From the NCBI GenBank assembly GCA_030539285.1, contig JAUNSH010000010.1:1-62449 (forward strand): a stretch of 62,449 nucleotides of DNA. The letters run 5' to 3'. The stretch comes from Eubacteriales bacterium. Its GTDB lineage: Bacteria > Bacillota > Clostridia > Oscillospirales > Oscillospiraceae. Of this stretch, positions 3,919 through 14,014 are shown piece by piece. Made by a program: the position numbers and the translations under genes. The notes below the pieces were generated by a model. That model worked only from the letters and a program-made list of their open reading frames with translations, was not told where the DNA came from and did not search any database. The first letter of the stretch is position 1. Every line of letters starts with the position of its first letter.

Positions 3919-6576
3919 TCGTATGACAATCGACGAATTAAAGTCTTATCTGTGGGAATCCGCAGTACTTCTGCGGACGAACATTGATGCAGGTGCCTAC
4001 AAGCAGTATATCTTCCCGCTGCTGTTCTTTAAGCGTATTGTGATGTATACGACGAAGAAACCAAAGCCGCTGAGCAGGAATACGGTGACGATATCGGTAT
4101 GTACCCCGAGGAAGAATTGCACACCTTTCTGGTACCCAAGGGGCACCATTGGAGCGATGTCCGTCAGGTAACTGAGGATGTAGGTGCCTCTATTGTGAAA
4201 GCATTCCGGGAAATCGAAAGGGTCAATGGCGACCGTATGACCGGTATTTTCGGTGACGGTGCCTGGACCAACAAAAATCGTCTGCCTGACCGCTTGTTGA
4301 GAGACCTCATTGAGCATTTTTCTTCCAAGGTGCTGTCTCTGGAAAATTGCCCGGAGGATGAGTTGGGCCAGGGCTATGAATATCTGATCAAACAGTTTGC
4401 TGATGACAGCGGACATACCGCCCAAGAATTTTATACCAACCGTACCGTGGTACATCTGATGACGGAAATGCTCCAGCCCCAGAGTGGTGAATCCGTATAC
4501 GATCCCACCTGCGGCAGCGCCGGTATGCTTATTTCCTGTATTGCCCATCTGAAAAATCAGGGCAAGGAATGGCGCAACTTGAAAATCTATGGCCAGGAAA
4601 TCAACCAGCTTACCAGTGCTATTGGCAGAATGAATCTGTTCCTCCATGGCATCGAGGACTTTAATATTGCTAATGATGATACTCTTAAAGCACCTACTTT
4701 TATTGAGGCTGGACGTCTGAAGCAATTTGATTTGATTCTGGCAAACCCTCCGTATTCCATTAGCCAATGGGATCGTGGCGCATTTGAAAACGACAAATAT
4801 GGTCGGAATATATATGGCACGCCTCCACAGGCAAGAGCGGATTATGCTTTTATCCAGCATATTCTTGCATCGCTGAAACCTGAATCTGGCCGAGCAGCTA
4901 TTCTATTGCCCCACGGTGTTTTGAACCGCAATGAAGAAAAAGAAATCAGAAAGGCTATTGTTAAGAGTGATTGTGTTGACGCGGTAATTGGTTTAGGGCG
5001 ACATCTTTTCTATAATAGTGGACTGGAATCCTGCATTGTAATCTTGCGTACCAATAAACCACTGAAGCATAGAAATACTGTTTTATTTATTGAGGCGGAA
5101 AAATGTACACACAAGGTACAGTCACAAAGTTACCTCTTCGAAGACGATATTACAAAAATAGTGTCTGCTTACTTTAGCGACGAAGATGTTGCAGACTTTT
5201 CTAGAAGAGTGTCCATTGATGAAATCCTTGAAAACGATGGAAATCTGAATATTAAACTTTATGTAAATAGCGATGAAGATACGGATGACGGTGATTTTGC
5301 GGATAACCTGGATGCTTTTCTTTCCTCTTCTATTGCAACGCATGAACAGTATTCTGCACTGGCAGAGGGCCATAAGGAAAGCTCGTTCAAGGGTTTCTCT
5401 GTCATGTTCGATGAATTTGATCGGTCGACGTGGAAACGGGTAAAACTTTCTGACGTTGCAACGGAATACTCTGAGAGAATTGATGATCCTTCAACCTCTG
5501 ATTATGAATGGTATATCGGATCGGATTGCATTGATGGATTTGCATTTACTATTTCCAGAAAGCAACCTGCAAGTAAGATTCATTCTGCACAAAAGTTGTT
5601 TAAAAAGGGCGATTATTTGCTGGTTCGCCGTAGCTTGTACGGTAGTGATTTCCGTGAACGTGCTCCGCGAGCAGATTTTGATGGAATTTGCTCTGCAGAC
5701 ATTCTGACGATTCGTGAAAAACCAGACGCAATTGTTGATGGGTATCTAATTGCGGTACTCTATAGCAAACAATTGTGGAAGTTCATTGTATCCAATTCCA
5801 CAGGCTCTTTAACGCGCCGAATTAAATGGAATCAGTTGAAAGATTTTGAATTTGATCTTCCCCCTGTTGAGTTGCAGCAGAAACTGGTTGAGCTACTGTG
5901 GGCAATGGAGGATACGAAAGCTGCTTATAAAGAGTTGATTGCAAAGAGCGATGATTTTGTGAAATCGCAATTTATCGAGCTGTTTGGTGATGCGAAGAAT
6001 CCTAAATGCCCTATTGTTAGGTTAAAAGAGCTTACAGATGTATGTAGTGGCGGAACGCCTGATCGCAAAACGGCAGAATATTGGGAATCAGGAAATATAC
6101 CATGGGTTAAAACTACAGAGCTTCAAAACAATGTTCTAACAACAACCGAAGAATTCATTACTGAAAGCGGCTTGCTTAATTCCTCTGCTAAGATTGTACC
6201 ATCGAATACCATACTGATTGCCATGTATGGCCAGGGAAAAACGCGGGGAATGACGGCTTTTCTCGGTGTTGAAGCTTGTACTAACCAGGCATGTGCCTGC
6301 ATTTTGCCTACAGATAAAATTGACATGCTGTTTCTCTGGCAGTACTTCATCTTATCGTACAACGAGTTAAGAAATCTGGCAAAAGGCAGTAACCAGGCAA
6401 ATTTGAATGCTGGACAGATAAAGAATTTTCTCGTTCCGTTGCCCCCTTTGGAGGCTCAAATGGAGTTCCGAGTATTTGTTGAACAGCTCGATAAATCAAA
6501 ATTTGAAGCCAAACAAGCGTTGGAATATATCACAGCAGCACAGAAAACATTGATGCGCCAGCATCTGGGCAACTAA
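3911..6576 (+). pseudogene. HsdM-HsdS fusion (methylase plus specificity subunit), one-base frameshift near the 5' end
   Basis: A second type I methylase in the same operon, starting at ATG 3911 behind AGGAGG. Residues 1-44 (through LFFKRI) are in one frame. The reading then continues in the next frame as DVYDEET from 4042, so one base is missing at about 4040 compared with LFFKRLSDVYDEET in the upstream paralogue. The methylase carries DPTCGSAGM (about residue 197) and NPPY (about 278). From about residue 500 it runs into a full HsdS region with two target-recognition domains (5410-5900 and 5985-6480) separated by helical spacers. A methylase-specificity fusion paired with a second methylase but no HsdR is atypical. 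A downstream in-frame ATG at 4099 could give an N-truncated product. Confidence 0.83.
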
Positions 6577-6615: not shown

Positions 6616-7134
6616 ATGTACCATCAGATTATCGCTGCGGTGGAAATCGCCATGGCTCCCCATTTGAGTAATGAACAACTGGATATTCTTCATGACACCC
6701 TTGTACAGGCAATGCAGGAATTACCGAGCACCACTACGGTGGAGGAAACTGCCCCGGATCTGGTGCAGATATTCCTATCGGCCAAGCGTGTCGAAGGATG
6801 TTCCGATAAAACGGTTCTTTATTATGATTCCACGATTCGCAATGTGCTCAATGCCGTAGGAAAAGATGTCCGGGATGTCACTACCGATGACCTGCGGATC
6901 TACCTGGATCGTTATCAAAGCACCAATGGAGTCAGCAAGGTTACCATAGACAATATCCGCAGAATTCTTTCCAGCTATTTTGCGTGGCTGGAGGATGAGG
7001 ACTATATCACGAAAAGTCCGGTCCGCCGGATTCATAAGGTTAAGACCTGCAAAACGGTGAAGGAAACCTATTCCGATGAAGCCCTGGAGCTGATGCGTGC
7101 GTACGCCGCTCCGAAACGACAGCTGGACCGCTGA
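6616..7134 (+). pseudogene. tyrosine recombinase, N-terminal part only
   Basis: Residues 45-150 match the SAM-like core-binding domain of XerC/D-type integrases (KTVLYYDSTIRNVL, FAWLEDEDYI, SPVRRI). The catalytic domain with the RHRY residues is absent. The sequence breaks at APKR, where the IS21-like element begins (7117), and the last codons to the stop at 7132-7134 come from the IS end. AAGGAGATTACT precedes the ATG. A recombinase directly behind hsdS commonly inverts hsdS target domains; this copy can no longer do so. No inverted hsdS fragment is visible downstream. Confidence 0.82.
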
Positions 7135-7239
7135 AGCCCGACACCCTGACCGCTGAAAACAGACACCCCTTCCGCTGGTCCGACAGTTGGAGAAATTGGC
7201 GTGGGGGCCGGCATGCTGTCAGTCCCCACGCCGTTTGTT

Positions 7240-7980
7240 TTATTCCATAATGCCCTTGCGCTTTCTCATGGTGTCACCTTCAATCCGGATAATATAGGAG
7301 TCATAGATAATCCGGCCACAGATGGCGTCAGCCAGAGTCGGGTCATACAGGTTCTCATGCCAGCCCGGAACATCGAACTGAGAGCAGAAAATGGTCGAGG
7401 CTGTTTTGGCTCTGGCCTCTACCAGCTCCAGCACATCCCTTGCTTCGCTCTCCTTCAGCGGATACAGGAGCCATTCATCCAAGATCAGCAGCTTCGTTTT
7501 CTTCAGCTTCTTCATGTACTCCCGGTAGGTTCCGTCACCCCGAGCCATGGCAATCTCCACCAACAAATCTGGCAGGCGGATGTACTTCGTGCTGTAGAAG
7601 TTCCGGTTTGCCGCCATGCCCAGTGCACATGCCAGATAGGTCTTTCCCGCACCAGTTGCGCCCAGCAGGATCACATTATGTGCTTCCTGAATGTAGGCAC
7701 AGGATGCCAGCCGCAGAATCTGGGACTTGTCCAGCTTCCTGTCCGGCAGATATTCAATATCTTCCACACTGGCCCCGGGAATGGCATAACCAGCATTCTT
7801 TATGAGGCTCTTTAAGTGGTTACTCTTTCTGGTGGACCATTCCGCATCTACCAGAATACTGAATCTGTCCTCAAAGGACATGGATGCAAACTGGGGATCA
7901 TCCAGTTGTTCCTTGAACTGTCTGGCCATAACGCCCAGACGCATATCCTGCAGTTTGGAAATGGTTTCATTGGTCAGCAT
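7240..7980 (-). CDS. istB: IS21-family helper ATPase IstB
   Basis: A 246-aa DnaA/DnaC-like AAA+ ATPase with Walker A GATGAGKT (about residues 107-114) and Walker B LLILDEW (about 166-172). It loads and activates the IstA transposase on target DNA. The start ATG overlaps the istA stop (TAATG), as usual in this family. Length and motifs look intact, so it could act in trans on other IS21 copies, although its partner here is broken. Confidence 0.93.
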   Translation of the reverse strand: MLTNETISKLQDMRLGVMARQFKEQLDDPQFASMSFEDRFSILVDAEWSTRKSNHLKSLIKNAGYAIPGASVEDIEYLPDRKLDKSQILRLASCAYIQEAHNVILLGATGAGKTYLACALGMAANRNFYSTKYIRLPDLLVEIAMARGDGTYREYMKKLKKTKLLILDEWLLYPLKESEARDVLELVEARAKTASTIFCSQFDVPGWHENLYDPTLADAICGRIIYDSYIIRIEGDTMRKRKGIME

Positions 7981-8791
7981 TATTTATCCCTCCTGTAATA
8001 TCCGGCACCGCGGGTAAAGCTGTATTGAGAAGCTTTTGTCGTGACTGGCGTGTCCTCTTCATCCGGCAGCTTGTCCTGACCGGATTTCAGAATGGACTGG
8101 ATACTTTTCAGACTTGGAGCTGGTGTGAATGCCAGTGCCTTTTTGCAGGCCGCTTCCAATCTGGCGGAGGAGTATTTGTCTGCGGACTTCAACAGGGCCA
8201 TGCAGGATTTGTATCCCTGCTGCTCCACCTTATATGCGGACAGAAATAATTTCACAACGGCGGCGGTATTGGGGCCAATCTGCTTCCCCCAGCGGAGGAA
8301 CCGCTCTGCGTTCCATTGCAAATATTCCTGGTGTTCCGGCGGCATATGGCTCTCATTTGTGCTATACTGGTTAGGGCGGCCGAGCAGCCGGGGATGGGAT
8401 GCGATCCGGGTTCCTCCAAAGAATACTTCTACAGTGCAGCGTAGTACTTGTTGAACTGGGTGGACTGATACGGCAGCTCACCGCTTAAACGGCACTGCTC
8501 ACAGTATTCGACCCACAGCAAGCTCAGGGTGACACCGCTCTTCTGCATCTCCTGATGGATGTATTCATAGTCCGGCATCTTGTACTGCCGTCCCACAGAT
8601 GTGGCAGGATACAGCTTTCTGGCCACCTCTGCTTCACCCAGGGAACGAATATCCTCCCAGGTGATTCCTTTCTCTTGCGCTCGCTGTACCGTTGAGATAA
8701 CAGTGCTCCGGGCACAGCCGCAGCTCTCCGCAATGCGGGTGTTGTTGATCCCAAGACTGTGCAGCCGCAGGATCTCTTTGTAATTGGTCAT
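7980..8791 (-). pseudogene. istA: IS21-family transposase IstA with deleted catalytic core
   Basis: Only the two ends of IstA remain. The 5' part (8429-8791, 120 aa) carries the helix-turn-helix (NTRIAESCGCARSTVIS) and ends after QFNKYYAA. The 3' part resumes in another frame with CTVEVFFGGTRI and continues through NQYSTNESHMPPEHQEYLQW to the stop at 7980. About 250-300 residues containing the DDE catalytic domain are missing and the two pieces are out of frame. Intact IstA proteins of this group are near 500 aa, so this copy cannot transpose by itself. Confidence 0.88.
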
Positions 8792-9204: not shown

Positions 9205-9238
9205 GATCTCCGGCAGCGAATCATACTGCCGGAGTTTT
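9205..9238 (+). terminator. intrinsic terminator facing the retron
   Basis: CTCCGGCAG and CTGCCGGAG form a stem with loop CGAATCATA, followed by TTTTTTATT. The U-run is on the plus strand, so it insulates the minus-strand retron from plus-strand read-through. Confidence 0.75.
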
Positions 9239-10231
9239 TTATTGTTCGGATTGTGTCTTTTTGTGAGTTTGATATGCAAACGCGTAGATCCCGGAGAAAG
9301 CATTCGGATGAACTTGCCGAGCAGCGCTGAGAAGGCCACGTAGCTGCTTCATGCCGAGCTCATCTTCGGGGTGATCGCGTAAATATTCATATTTTTTTAT
9401 GATTTTCAGGCGCAGGGAATTCTTAACAGCAGGCTGACCATCGGAATCAATGATGACACCGGTAACTAACTTGGGGTGAGTTTTGATGTACAGTTTGACT
9501 TTTTTGGCAGAAACCTGATAACCGTACCTCCGAATGATCGCAAAGATCTTACTTCTGAATTGGTAGGAAATCCGATTCTCACTGGAAAAGGCAACATCGT
9601 CAACATAAATAGTCATGGTAGCGCCATATGCGTCGGCAGCAGCCTGCATTTCATCAAACATTTGGTGGTTGACCAGGTAGCACATGATTTGGCTGCTGGG
9701 AGAGCCAGAGATAAGGTGGTTTCTACAGGTGACATTTTTCTTTTCCAGAAAACGGTTCACAGAACTCATATCTTTGACAGTAGCTTTGTCTAGGTCTACG
9801 GTAGTGATATTTGTAAGGATTTCAGCCACATCGCAGGAACACTTCAGATCATCAACAAAGAAACGAAACACGGTTTCCCGGCTGATCGAAGGGAAGAACG
9901 CTGTAAGGTCGATTTTGAAAAGATTTCTGCGGGTATCACCAACATGCTTTTTTGCATTACCGGCATAGGAACGATTTTTTATCCCAGAAAACACGTTGTC
10001 ATCGACATCGATCTTCGAAAGATGATTTTTGATCCGGCTCTGGAGAACCTTCAGTTTATCATGTGGTGACTCAATCAGTCGATCCTTGGGATCGGTGACG
10101 ATATGAGGATACACCAGCGATGCACAATAATCTTGTTTTAGGAATTTACTGTCCTGAATTCTAAGCAAACGCTTCAGCACTTTTTTCGATTGAAGCCCAT
10201 AAAATGGGCATTCTGTATATAGCAAAGGCAA
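9239..10231 (-). CDS. retron-type reverse transcriptase
   Basis: About 330 aa. It shows the reverse transcriptase fingers/palm motifs: FKIDLTAFFPSI (about 105-116), GSPSSQ (176-181) and the catalytic YVDD (209-212, instead of the commoner YADD). It also has both retron hallmarks: NAxxH (NAKKH, just before FKIDL) and VTG (KLVTGVIID, about 256). It would copy the msr-msd RNA encoded upstream into branched msDNA. The frame is open to ATG 10318, but that start overlaps the membrane-protein gene and lacks a ribosome site; TTG at 10231 or 10225 behind AGAGGTG is more plausible. It is the last gene of the minus-strand unit promoter, ncRNA, membrane protein, RT. Confidence 0.9.
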   Translation of the reverse strand: MPLLYTECPFYGLQSKKVLKRLLRIQDSKFLKQDYCASLVYPHIVTDPKDRLIESPHDKLKVLQSRIKNHLSKIDVDDNVFSGIKNRSYAGNAKKHVGDTRRNLFKIDLTAFFPSISRETVFRFFVDDLKCSCDVAEILTNITTVDLDKATVKDMSSVNRFLEKKNVTCRNHLISGSPSSQIMCYLVNHQMFDEMQAAADAYGATMTIYVDDVAFSSENRISYQFRSKIFAIIRRYGYQVSAKKVKLYIKTHPKLVTGVIIDSDGQPAVKNSLRLKIIKKYEYLRDHPEDELGMKQLRGLLSAARQVHPNAFSGIYAFAYQTHKKTQSEQ

Positions 10232-10262
10232 AACACCTCTATTTGAAAATGGTGTGCTGGCG

Positions 10263-10490
10263 TTAGCCGCCGATATGCTTGCTGACATAAGACAGGACAG
10301 CGTCAACAATCTTAGCAAACATATCAGGACAGTAATGTGCTACAGCCAGTACGATGATTGCCATGAGCGCCGCAAGGGCGATCACGACAGATGCGGGGAT
10401 AGGGGATGTACCATTGTTAAAAGTAACGTTAATGGTGACATCGCCGGTGTTGTCGCGGACCACGACAACGGGTTTGTCCGCCTTTTTCAT
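10263..10490 (-). CDS. small single-span membrane protein, candidate retron effector
   Basis: A 75-aa protein behind a strong AGGAGGTGAACTC ribosome site. The N-terminal 30 residues are polar with beta-like repeats (VVVVRDNTGDVTINV). Residues 33-53 are a transmembrane helix (PASVVIALAALMAIIVLAVAH), followed by a short amphipathic tail (MFAKIVDAVLSYVSKHIGG). It sits between the candidate msr-msd RNA and the reverse transcriptase, where retron effectors are often encoded. Its size and shape resemble membrane-acting toxins or holins. I know of no named family for it. The effector role is inferred from position and topology only. Confidence 0.75.
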   Translation of the reverse strand: MKKADKPVVVVRDNTGDVTINVTFNNGTSPIPASVVIALAALMAIIVLAVAHYCPDMFAKIVDAVLSYVSKHIGG

Positions 10491-10588
10491 GAGTTCACCT
10501 CCTTGTTATTATTGGCCCCTCGAGAATGAAGGGTCTTCCCATTCCGCAAATAACATAGGAGATATGCAGCTGTGTAGCACTAAAATAA
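10491..10588 (-). other. leader between the retron RNA and the membrane-protein gene
   Basis: About 100 bases between the a2 repeat and the start codon at 10490. It contains the ribosome site but no recognised gene and no clear U-tailed terminator, so the ncRNA and coding part could share one transcript. Confidence 0.5.
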
Positions 10589-10840
10589 CACCAGCACGAT
10601 TTCTTCCCATTTGATTGGGAACCTTTTTACAACACATAAGACAATCAGAATATATCCCATACAGACACACAGGTACAAATAGATTCACAGAAGGAATATT
10701 CCTGTCCGTGTGTGTGGAGTATGACATATAAGCCGGGGAGAACCCTGTGCCGCAAAAATTTGCATCCATGTCCAAGACACGATGCCGCCCGTGTTTCCAC
10801 GAACCACAGTGGAAGATAATCTAGACTGCTCGTACTGACA
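10589..10840 (-). ncRNA. candidate retron msr-msd RNA
   Basis: About 250 nt transcribed from the promoter at 10847-10875. The 5' ten bases TGTCAGTACG (10840-10831) can pair with CGTGCTGGTG (10598-10589; 10 pairs, 4 of them G-U), like the a1/a2 repeats of retrons, and a1 is directly followed by AGC, the usual site of the branching guanosine. Next come a hairpin with a GAAA tetraloop (10788-10803), a 10-bp hairpin GCATC-GTGTC/GACAT-GATGC with one bulge (10762-10785), a long imperfect stem with a 27-nt loop (10701-10729 with 10651-10673) as candidate msd, and a TTCCCA/TGGGAA hairpin (10604-10621). The folds are by eye. Confidence 0.7.
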
Positions 10841-10846
10841 AAACGA

Positions 10847-10875
10847 ATTATACCATATATCGCAATTACTGGCAA
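10847..10875 (-). promoter_or_regulatory. sigma-70 promoter of the retron
   Basis: On the minus strand TTGCCA (10875-10870), a 17-bp spacer and TATAAT (10852-10847) form a near-consensus promoter. The expected transcription start near 10840 coincides with the first base of the a1 repeat. Confidence 0.85.
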
Positions 10876-10974: not shown

Positions 10975-11409
10975 TCATAAGCTCGTACAGGAAAGGGCTA
11001 TTATCTGCTTCTTTTTCCGCTCTGCATATTTCAGCGTAGCGGCGGCACCACCCCAGTTGTGCTGGATGTAGGCAACAACCACATCACTGTTGGAAACCAT
11101 CCATTCATTGCGCTTCGATATAGCAAAGCGCCGGGGGACGGTTTCCAGTGGCGGGTACATGGAATTATCGTAGAGCGCCGGTTCATAGTCCCGATCGATG
11201 TAGGGGATTACCAGTGTGGAATGGATGCCGGAATGGTTCTTTTTAGCATTGCGGACAGCGATGGCCGCCATTGTATCAAATTCACCATAGCCGCCCAGCA
11301 GGAATTTGTCGGCACCTTCATCAATCAGTTTTTCTATAATATCTGCAAGAGCAGCGGCGACAGCATTGGCATTGGCCACTTGACTGTGGCCGCAGAAAGT
11401 GACGGTCAT
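10975..11409 (-). CDS. SLOG-superfamily (DUF1273-like) nucleotide-binding protein
   Basis: A 144-aa Rossmann-like protein. MTVTFCGHS at the N-terminus, the GGYGEFDTMAA loop (about residues 39-49), the VIPYIDRDY segment and the C-terminal NWGGAAATLKYA are the pattern of SLOG/YpsA-like proteins, which bind nucleotide ligands. Substrate and role are unknown. SLOG domains occur in some nucleotide-signalling defence systems, and here the gene lies directly upstream of the retron on the same strand, but a hairpin and a separate promoter lie between them, so co-function is only a guess. A good ribosome site (GAGGAAT) precedes the start. Confidence 0.75.
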   Translation of the reverse strand: MTVTFCGHSQVANANAVAAALADIIEKLIDEGADKFLLGGYGEFDTMAAIAVRNAKKNHSGIHSTLVIPYIDRDYEPALYDNSMYPPLETVPRRFAISKRNEWMVSNSDVVVAYIQHNWGGAAATLKYAERKKKQIIALSCTSL

Positions 11410-11529: not shown

Positions 11530-11832
11530 ATGGATATTACGAAAAGGCTCGTAGAGCTGCAGCAGCGGTATGGCTGGTCTGATTACAGAATCGCCAAGGA
11601 AGCGGGTCTGTCGCCCAACACCGTATCCAATATTTATCGTAGAGGTAACACTCCCAGCATGGTGACACTGGAAGCGCTTTGCAAGGCTTTCGGTATTACG
11701 ATGGCGCAGTTCTTCGCAGAAGATGAACTGGTAGAACTGACCCCGGAGTTACGGAAGCTATTTGATAAGTGGACTGCGCTCAACGATGAGCAGAAAGCAG
11801 CATTGTGGCAGATCATTAAGACCTACGAATAA
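11530..11832 (+). CDS. XRE-family helix-turn-helix regulator
   Basis: A 100-aa protein whose first 60 residues are a Cro/CI-type helix-turn-helix (SDYRIAKEAGLSPNTVSNIY, then TLEALCKAFGITMAQFF). The C-terminal 35 residues are helical (ELRKLFDKWTALNDEQKAALW), as in small phage-type repressors. It is preceded by GAGGTGG and followed by a terminator, so it is monocistronic, and it is divergent from the SLOG gene. The identical inverted 13-mers on both sides suggest autoregulation. Its targets are unknown. Confidence 0.92.
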   Translation: MDITKRLVELQQRYGWSDYRIAKEAGLSPNTVSNIYRRGNTPSMVTLEALCKAFGITMAQFFAEDELVELTPELRKLFDKWTALNDEQKAALWQIIKTYE

Positions 11833-12588: not shown

Positions 12589-12878
12589 CGTTTCATCACA
12601 AAAAACTTTTTCAAATAGGCAAAGAACTTGCCTCTTGGGAAGGCCCGCTTCCCGCAATCCTGATTTTGTTTGTGCTTCCTCGTGATGAGAATGAGTGGGT
12701 AGACTTTTCTACGGAAAGCACAACAATCCGAAAATGCGCGTGGTGGTGTTCCTTGGCGGGACAGCCTACAACAGACAATGAGAATTCAAAGAGAATTCGA
12801 ATTCCTATAGATCAAGTGTTTTCTCCGGATGCACTTCGGGATATGATGGGAAAGGTAAGGAGGGGTGAAAGTCTATGA
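12588..12878 (+). pseudogene. C-terminal fragment of an unrecognised protein, possibly DUF4365-like
   Basis: About 96 codons beginning right at the U-tract of the preceding terminator, so the 5' part of the gene was replaced. The remaining sequence (LPAILILFVLPRDENEWVDF...RIRIPIDQVFSPDALRDMM) is like the end of DUF4365-type domains found near defence genes, but this is a weak resemblance. It overlaps the next gene by four bases (ATGA), implying that the two were translated together. Confidence 0.4.
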
Positions 12879-14014
12879 ATTCTATCGTTAAGAAGAATCT
12901 TATGGGTATTACTGCCGCCTCCGTTGAGAAGTATCTTTCGATTACTGGATGGGAGAGAGTTCGTGATTTTGCAAATCAAAGGCTCTGTGTGTTTTCTTAC
13001 AGGGATGACCCGGAGTTTCGATTGGCAATTCCCAGCAATGAGGAAAGCAATTCCTATTATGTAAAACTCTATGATATTATTGACACATTAGCTGCTTTTC
13101 AAGAAAAAACGCATGAAGAAATAATTGAAGCGATGAAAAGTGCATATGTAGACCGAATTCAATTCCGCATTGTGAGTGAACACACTAGAAATGGAAAAAT
13201 ACCCCTCTCTTATGCTACACAATGCGTTGAAGGCTTAAAGGAATTGGTCTTGTATGCTGCTTGTGCAGAAGAGAGCGCAGCTCCGATCTGTATGAGAGCA
13301 TTTAATCAAGCAAAAGAAAATTTGGATAAATTTCAGTTTGCACAGACAGGCTATGGTAGTTTCGTCTTCAATATTGATGTGTGTATAGTTGACGAAAACA
13401 ATGAGCAGACATATCTCCAAGAAGTTATTGAACAGCTACCAGATTCTGAGGAGCATAAAATTGTAAAGAGGATCAAAACCGCAATTGAACAAATTGATGG
13501 CGCAGTCGCACGATCAACCACAATTAGTGATATAGTCGCATCTGGTTATCACGATGGTGTGACTGCAAACATATGTGATGCACTAGCTAAACTGAGACCG
13601 GAAGGAACGGAAGATATCGAAGTTGAAACGACCTTCCGATTTGCAGAAGTTATTTCTCACAATGTTGATACCCCAGCTAGAACAACGCTTGGAAATGTAC
13701 ACTTTATGGTTGCTGACGAAATTTCCAAAAGGTTTAAAGACCGAAATTTGATTGAAGATGTTTCGCTGACAGGTACCATAAGGACGCTGACAAGGGAAAC
13801 GAATCCTGACAGTAATGAAAATGAAAACACTGTCAAACTGGTAACCAAAATCGACGGCCATTATAGGACAATAAGTGTTCATCTTTCTGCGGCAGATCAT
13901 ATTGCAGCATGTGATGCATACCGCGACGATCGTGAGGTTGAGATTTCTGGAACAATCGATAAAAGTCAGTCCAGATGGTTCTTTACTGAAGTAACAGCAT
14001 TTAACGTTCTGTAA
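12875..14014 (+). CDS. hypothetical protein (379 aa)
   Basis: It starts in an ATGA overlap with the preceding fragment, behind AAGGAGGGGTG. The protein is soluble, without signal or membrane segments. The N-terminal 160 residues are mostly helical, the middle is mixed, and the last 90 residues (from GTIRTLTRETNPD to FFTEVTAFNVL) look like a small beta-barrel in which VEISGTID and SVHLSAADHI recur as strands. I do not recognise the family. AT-rich codon use and position beside phage remnants suggest transferred cargo. The length and clean frame argue that it is still functional. Confidence 0.7.
   Translation: MNSIVKKNLMGITAASVEKYLSITGWERVRDFANQRLCVFSYRDDPEFRLAIPSNEESNSYYVKLYDIIDTLAAFQEKTHEEIIEAMKSAYVDRIQFRIVSEHTRNGKIPLSYATQCVEGLKELVLYAACAEESAAPICMRAFNQAKENLDKFQFAQTGYGSFVFNIDVCIVDENNEQTYLQEVIEQLPDSEEHKIVKRIKTAIEQIDGAVARSTTISDIVASGYHDGVTANICDALAKLRPEGTEDIEVETTFRFAEVISHNVDTPARTTLGNVHFMVADEISKRFKDRNLIEDVSLTGTIRTLTRETNPDSNENENTVKLVTKIDGHYRTISVHLSAADHIAACDAYRDDREVEISGTIDKSQSRWFFTEVTAFNVL

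Follow-up and report, generated by a model that had tools for sequence, protein, structure and literature searches.

How the reverse transcriptase (RT) and the msDNA restrain the effector is open for most retrons, and the locus described here raises this question in a minimal case, a clade of units of ~1.6 kb with a proposed effector of 54-75 aa. It was found in a stretch of 62,449 nucleotides from an Eubacteriales bacterium; this whole stretch is referred to as the window. The initial annotation of this DNA had proposed a minimal toxin-type retron. This proposal stood in part: the RT is retron-like, the RNA shows an a1/a2-type fold, and the small membrane gene is the conserved partner. The locus is no singular case, however; its clade comprises no fewer than 16 distinct loci, and its RT is of the type VI lineage. 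The unit is best read as a type VI-lineage retron variant that lacks the HTH gene. Its features, at positions in the window, are as follows.

10875-9239, minus strand: retron unit (promoter, structured RNA, 75-aa membrane-protein gene, RT)
10847..10875, minus strand: promoter TTGCCA-17-TATAAT with TG before the -10 element, 11/12 consensus positions
10587..10839, minus strand: msr-msd-like RNA from a1 to a2, assigned by folding and conserved helices
10830..10839, minus strand: a1, the RNA 5' end, pairing with a2
10828..10830, minus strand: AGC with a candidate priming G at 10829, assigned by its position after a1
10811..10816, minus strand: P, complementary to box1 and box2
10602..10611, minus strand: box1, directly ahead of a2, 10 letters identical to box2
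10587..10599, minus strand: a2, pairing with a1 or with c
10495..10563, minus strand: hairpin with the Shine-Dalgarno (SD) sequence of the small gene, conserved and covarying
10534..10543, minus strand: box2, within the SD hairpin, 10 letters identical to box1
10263..10490, minus strand: gene for a 75-aa single-span membrane protein with one hydrophobic stretch
10254..10264, minus strand: c, overlapping and following the stop of the small gene, complementary to a2
9239..10231, minus strand: retron-type RT, TTG start, 330 codons
9958-9944, minus strand: RT motif NAKKH, directly before FKIDL
9607-9596, minus strand: RT catalytic motif YVDD, read from the sequence
9466-9458, minus strand: RT motif VTG, read from the sequence
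9208..9234, minus strand: inverted repeat past the RT stop, read from the sequence and not listed by the terminator scan

The coordinates 9239..10875 given in the initial annotation fit this compact minus-strand unit, and the parts named there were located again, including the consensus promoter and both of the RT motifs NAxxH and VTG, which are marks of retron RTs. The promoter was the top-scoring of seven promoter-like sites within 2.8 kb. Since this number of sites did not exceed that in shuffled sequences (mean 5.3, sd 2.7), the assignment rests on the score of the site itself and on a TATAAT-like hexamer, judged by eye, ahead of the RNA start in relatives.

Profile searches with the RT, which the initial annotation had suggested, indicated a retron-type enzyme whose top PADLOC family was RT_VI (2.2e-70, 235 bits), followed by a runner-up at 2.6e-35 (120 bits). 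A placement with group II introns, DGR, or Abi systems, raised in the annotation as the counterargument to a retron, fails, as such models were absent among the listed matches of the window RT and the best 25 of 37 PADLOC families were all retron RTs. In Pfam, the RT matched RVT_1 only. All 12 distinct PDB sequences found with the RT profile at E<=1e-5 were RTs; 10-11 of them were named retron, with 9kjx and 9n69 listed as RNA-directed DNA polymerase. RT_VI was also the top family for each of the ten type VI-like RTs scanned against PADLOC (the window and nine others, seven without an HTH neighbor and two canonical), with a lead of 82-199 bits over the next family. Phylogenetic analysis of 30 RTs placed the window inside a 12-row clade (support 98/95), which was nested in a 24-row RT_VI group (100/99) set against six other RTs; the HTH-bearing rows grouped together (72/89). 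The RT of the Enterococcus faecalis plasmid pKUB3007-4 (L033) likewise has RT_VI as its top family and no HTH gene, as in the window clade, and was placed on a long branch outside the 12-row clade. The 93-aa hydrophobic protein encoded there (2215-2496) overlaps the RT start and looks unrelated to the small protein of the window.

The order RNA, small membrane gene, RT was observed in all 16 distinct loci examined (the window, L001-L003, L005-L008, L020, L023, L037, L038, L040, and L081-L083), which are interrelated and represent about five or six lineages. This search for homologous loci, also suggested in the initial annotation, thus showed that the small gene is kept between the RNA and the RT. 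Copies (L018, a copy of L002, and L019, L021, L039, L080, L084, L104, and L105) were dropped, and weak RT matches (L009-L017 and L093-L103) were left out of the analysis. The small gene and the RT are separated by ~30-50 nt in the clade (33-37 nt in the eight loci measured), which leaves no space for an HTH gene between them, and no intervening gene was seen in the remaining clade loci read. No conserved gene other than the small gene and the RT was detected; the genes after the RT varied among the three loci compared (L001, L002, and L020). These post-RT genes encode a ScaI-type restriction endonuclease in L002, an FRG-domain protein in L020, and a protein unmatched in Pfam followed by a weakly PLD-like one in L001.

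The distribution of the clade is patchy. Relatives of the RT were found in 13/400 genomes of the family, five of them near full length and close (own genome included), in 4/394 genomes of the order and 6/391 of the class, and in 1/67, 1/51, and 1/6 genomes of smaller sets, the center genome being counted where present. None of nine genomes of the same genus, besides its own, carried a clade RT. Across the phylum, RT_VI was detected in 9/398 genomes, with L022 and L023 at ~250 bits and the others at 160-194 bits. Three clade loci come from Clostridia or Ruminococcus metagenome-assembled genomes. A first RT scan of viral contigs returned no relative; a profile scan with the RT gave 42 loci there, 25 of which were read for gene content.

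According to PMC8541194, type VI retrons combine genes for an RT, a DNA-binding protein, and a small auxiliary protein, and the HTH gene as the defining feature of the type rests on that source together with the PADLOC names. In canonical loci, we found the order RNA, gene for a basic 47-56-aa peptide, HTH gene, RT. Among 21 viral-contig loci outside the clade, the HTH gene was present in 20 and a small open reading frame (ORF) after the RNA in 17; in another set, five canonical loci had both. The window clade shares with type VI retrons the RT family, the upstream RNA, and a small ORF that immediately follows this RNA, canonical examples of the latter being a Staphylococcus plasmid (L032) and the phages P2_2H1 (L031) and MuM16-1 (L036). 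In contrast, type VI retrons carry the HTH gene between the small ORF and the RT, where the window clade has none. As the HTH feature was searched for and not found, the unit was filed as an HTH-less variant rather than a canonical type VI retron. The small proteins also differ: those of the window clade have one true span (hydropathy 2.0-3.2), whereas the canonical ones are mostly basic, amphipathic peptides of 47-56 aa (mostly 0.7-2.0). The small ORF is therefore a partner common to both kinds by position, and we claim no sequence likeness between them. This suggests that the part common to all type VI-like loci, where it is readable, is the small ORF that follows the RNA and not the HTH gene.

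An arrangement of RNA, membrane accessory protein, and RT, as in the window, is also described for Eco6 (Ec48) in PMC8989520, where the accessory protein has two spans and seemed non-toxic alone. The Eco6/Ec48 RT belonged to another family in our scan, its accessory protein has two spans instead of one, and the window protein is much shorter. As judged by hydropathy only, a single stretch rather than the two spans of a type IV/Ec48 effector was found in 14/14 clade proteins.

The RNA elements, which the initial annotation did not mention beyond the claim of a structured RNA, are the more novel part of the locus. That claim was substantiated: the folding energy of the RNA over 10839-10488 was -116.3 kcal/mol (z -3.95; 0/100 shuffles as low), the helices are kept across 12 loci, and no known Rfam family was found at the RNA. 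The priming G of retrons sits in AGC, consistent with the candidate at 10829. Over the 12 loci, 96.3% of the a1:a2 cells were paired, with one-sided changes and no double change. Pairing of P with box1 was found in 95% of cells, with double changes at 4/5 pairs, and pairing of the SD hairpin in 98.1%, with double changes at two pairs. The SD sequence of the small gene (GGAG) was paired at 0.91-1.00 in 14/14 loci (the near copies L002 and L040 being omitted from this set and from the hydropathy set), a level of >=0.9 being reached by 30% of 250 background GGAG sites; the SD sequence of the RT itself (GGAG) ranged from 0.03 to 0.97 across clade loci. A pattern search for the SD hairpin in viral contigs found nothing.

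The strand a2 has a second potential partner in c, on the far side of the small gene. Complementarity of 8-12 bp between a2 and c was present in 16/16 loci (shuffle p <=0.0045), and a2 matched the c of its own family better than the c of other families. Helices as good as a2:c were found in 0 windows elsewhere in the locus in 11/13 loci, and in 2/912 and 1/579 windows in the other two. Compensatory changes in a2:c occur in three lineages: two adjacent double changes were seen in L008, and the helix was wholly rewritten in L023 (AGUGUGG/CCACACU) and in L083 (GAGUUGAC/GUCAACUC), two loci whose a2 anchors were placed by hand after sequence reading. Six of the ten a2:c pairs were invariant, and further pair types were no more frequent than in shuffles (412/500 as high). 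The two boxes shared 6-10 letters in 16/16 loci, beyond shuffles at 0.05 in 15/16; in L083 this identity did not exceed chance (p 0.49), and L038 was a borderline case (0.049). The match of P to both boxes reached 6 nt in 15/16 loci, the exception being L038. The shuffle controls for these elements ignore phylogeny. At the level of the sequence, the gene order, RT family, conservation of and selection on the small gene, SD hairpin, a2:c complementarity, and repeated box are evident in the clade. Among canonical type VI loci, an a2:c-like helix reached p <0.05 in only 2/15 (L032 and L070), the repeated box was found in only 1/15 (L076), and SD masking of >=0.9 was found in 5/14 (L064 being omitted from this set), with a mean near background. 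As these elements are weak in canonical loci, the switch is claimed for the clade of the window only. The canonical leaders of L067, L070, and L046 mask the SD sequence of the small ORF at 0.97-0.98.

Folding ensembles, which are purely thermodynamic and ignore ribosomes and the RT, indicated two competing states of the leader. When the RNA ended at the small start codon, a1:a2 was formed at 0.69-0.92 in 7/10 loci and was low in L037 (0.40), L038 (0.43), and L008 (0.01). When the transcript was extended to the RT, a2:c reached 0.65-0.98 in 9/10 loci, with a1:a2 at <=0.19 in these; L003 was reversed (a1:a2, 0.58 vs a2:c, 0.12). The SD sequence was paired in the short and extended transcripts alike in the 10 loci. 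Because a2:c dominates once the transcript is extended, the full transcript is predicted to bury a2 around the small gene, and a shorter or otherwise freed RNA is predicted to take the retron fold. The model predicts a bistable leader that links the reverse-transcribable fold to the expression of the membrane effector. This is a sequence-level hint that effector control may run partly through RNA, the leader being able to take two conserved folds around the gene of the effector that exclude each other. Neither such a leader switch nor a single-span retron effector came up in the open-access literature searched.

We consider it reasonably probable that the unit is a retron whose RT belongs to the type VI lineage and whose HTH gene was lost or never acquired, with the one-span membrane protein, the proposed effector, as its only partner and with a leader switch. 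In the proposed mechanism, the RT would convert the a1:a2-closed fold into msDNA, and the RT-msDNA complex would silence the small protein, a putative membrane effector. Phage disturbance of this complex might then free the effector, leading to membrane damage and abortive infection. The SD hairpin would meanwhile hold down translation of the small protein. The leader may exist in two exclusive states, the a1:a2 retron fold and the long-range a2:c helix around the small gene, and this a2 switch would couple the supply of msDNA precursor and effector in cis.

The strongest competitor, which we regard as possible and clearly less probable, takes a2:c and the hairpin as ordinary expression control, such as attenuation or RNA processing, with no coupling to reverse transcription. 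The T-rich stretch after c (3-7 T per 12 nt as a raw count in 14 loci) is in keeping with it, as is the capacity of a strong helix closing 300 nt to protect or terminate the transcript. Against it, the strand engaged in a2:c is precisely the one on which the retron fold depends, and the hairpin contains repeats of, or matches to, the neighboring junction elements box1 and P.

The small protein of the window has a mean hydropathy of 2.92 over its 19-residue stretch, in agreement with the single-span protein of the initial annotation, and a single stretch at 2.0-3.2 was found in 14/14 clade proteins by hydropathy only. Twelve of these proteins aligned with a mean column identity of 53% and share a layout in which a polar start with KK is followed by a strand-like stretch, often GDNNKV, the span, and usually an ending like CCPELLADFVRW. 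Its gene is the sole conserved partner across the 16 loci, in the manner of a retron accessory gene, and occurs in one copy only in the genome of the window. In 13/13 pairs tried, dN was lower than dS (ratios about 0.29-0.77). Synonymous change in the same pairs (L001-L008) was lower in the small gene than in the RT (window/L001, 0.44 vs 0.93), which, from sequence comparison, points to RNA-level constraint or exchange. The protein probably acts at the membrane, and a toxin role is what we infer for it. Type I toxin-antitoxin systems encode a short hydrophobic protein whose SD sequence is masked by mRNA structure; both traits recur in the window unit, which differs by its RT.

It is also conceivable, at rather low odds, that the small protein is no toxin but anchors the RT-msDNA complex at the membrane, or acts as its sensor or regulator, with any killing function lying elsewhere. 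Searches of Pfam, PHROGs, and PADLOC with the 12 small proteins gave no significant match, toxin and holin families included, nor did a search of the PDB with their profile. Known membrane toxins include short hydrophobic proteins under translational silencing, and the resemblance of the small protein to these speaks against a mere anchor, as do the lack of any other conserved gene and the difference in post-RT genes between loci. On the side of the anchor, the two-span protein of Eco6 (Ec48) and the accessory protein of Eco1 seemed non-toxic alone in PMC8989520.

A bolder version of the control by RNA, which we find doubtful, has the RT-DNA itself regulate the effector mRNA in antisense. With a cDNA start next to a2, the 5' end of the DNA would be complementary to box1; as box2 has the same 6-10 letters in 16/16 loci, the DNA, being single-stranded, could also pair with the leader of the mRNA for its own effector. 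Together with the switching of a2 between a1 and c, this would make the retron a toxin-antitoxin system in which reverse-transcribed DNA controls the translation of a membrane toxin.

The defense and phage debris described around the unit in the initial annotation was also recovered, namely, a type I restriction-modification (R-M) gene, an IS21 IstB gene, a TerL ATPase fragment, an N-terminal integrase fragment, and a PDC-M02B candidate. Decay of the unit, or a failure to make msDNA, is very improbable: its RNA is the most divergent among near relatives, and IS21 and gene fragments adjoin it, yet the RT is open with catalytic YVDD, the small gene and the promoter are intact, and so is every RNA element. 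Still a shade less credible is a canonical type VI retron with its HTH partner elsewhere, such as the XRE protein at 11530-11832, which matches PADLOC HTH_VI at 3.6e-7 and was rejected as the partner, as this model is unspecific (matches in 13/14 control genomes; eight other places in the genome of the window passing 1e-6, the best at 7.4e-11), a true partner, that of the Staphylococcus plasmid (L032), scores 1.5e-29, and the XRE gene, which is divergent, lies at a distance of two genes. The variant without an HTH gene remains our preferred reading.

Several neighbors are of interest in their own right. The type I R-M gene joins N6_Mtase and Methylase_S domains in a single 825-aa frame (4099-6576, plus strand). 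The integrase fragment, 172 aa within 6616-8791, is followed by the IS21-type IstB gene at 7240-7980. Just upstream of the retron, a 144-aa gene (10975-11409, minus strand) shows a weak YpsA/SLOG likeness (23.9 bits vs a Pfam cut-off of 27.7). The PADLOC candidate PDC-M02B is a 379-aa protein (12875-14014, plus strand) with no Pfam family above the cut-off and a match at E 2.7e-144.
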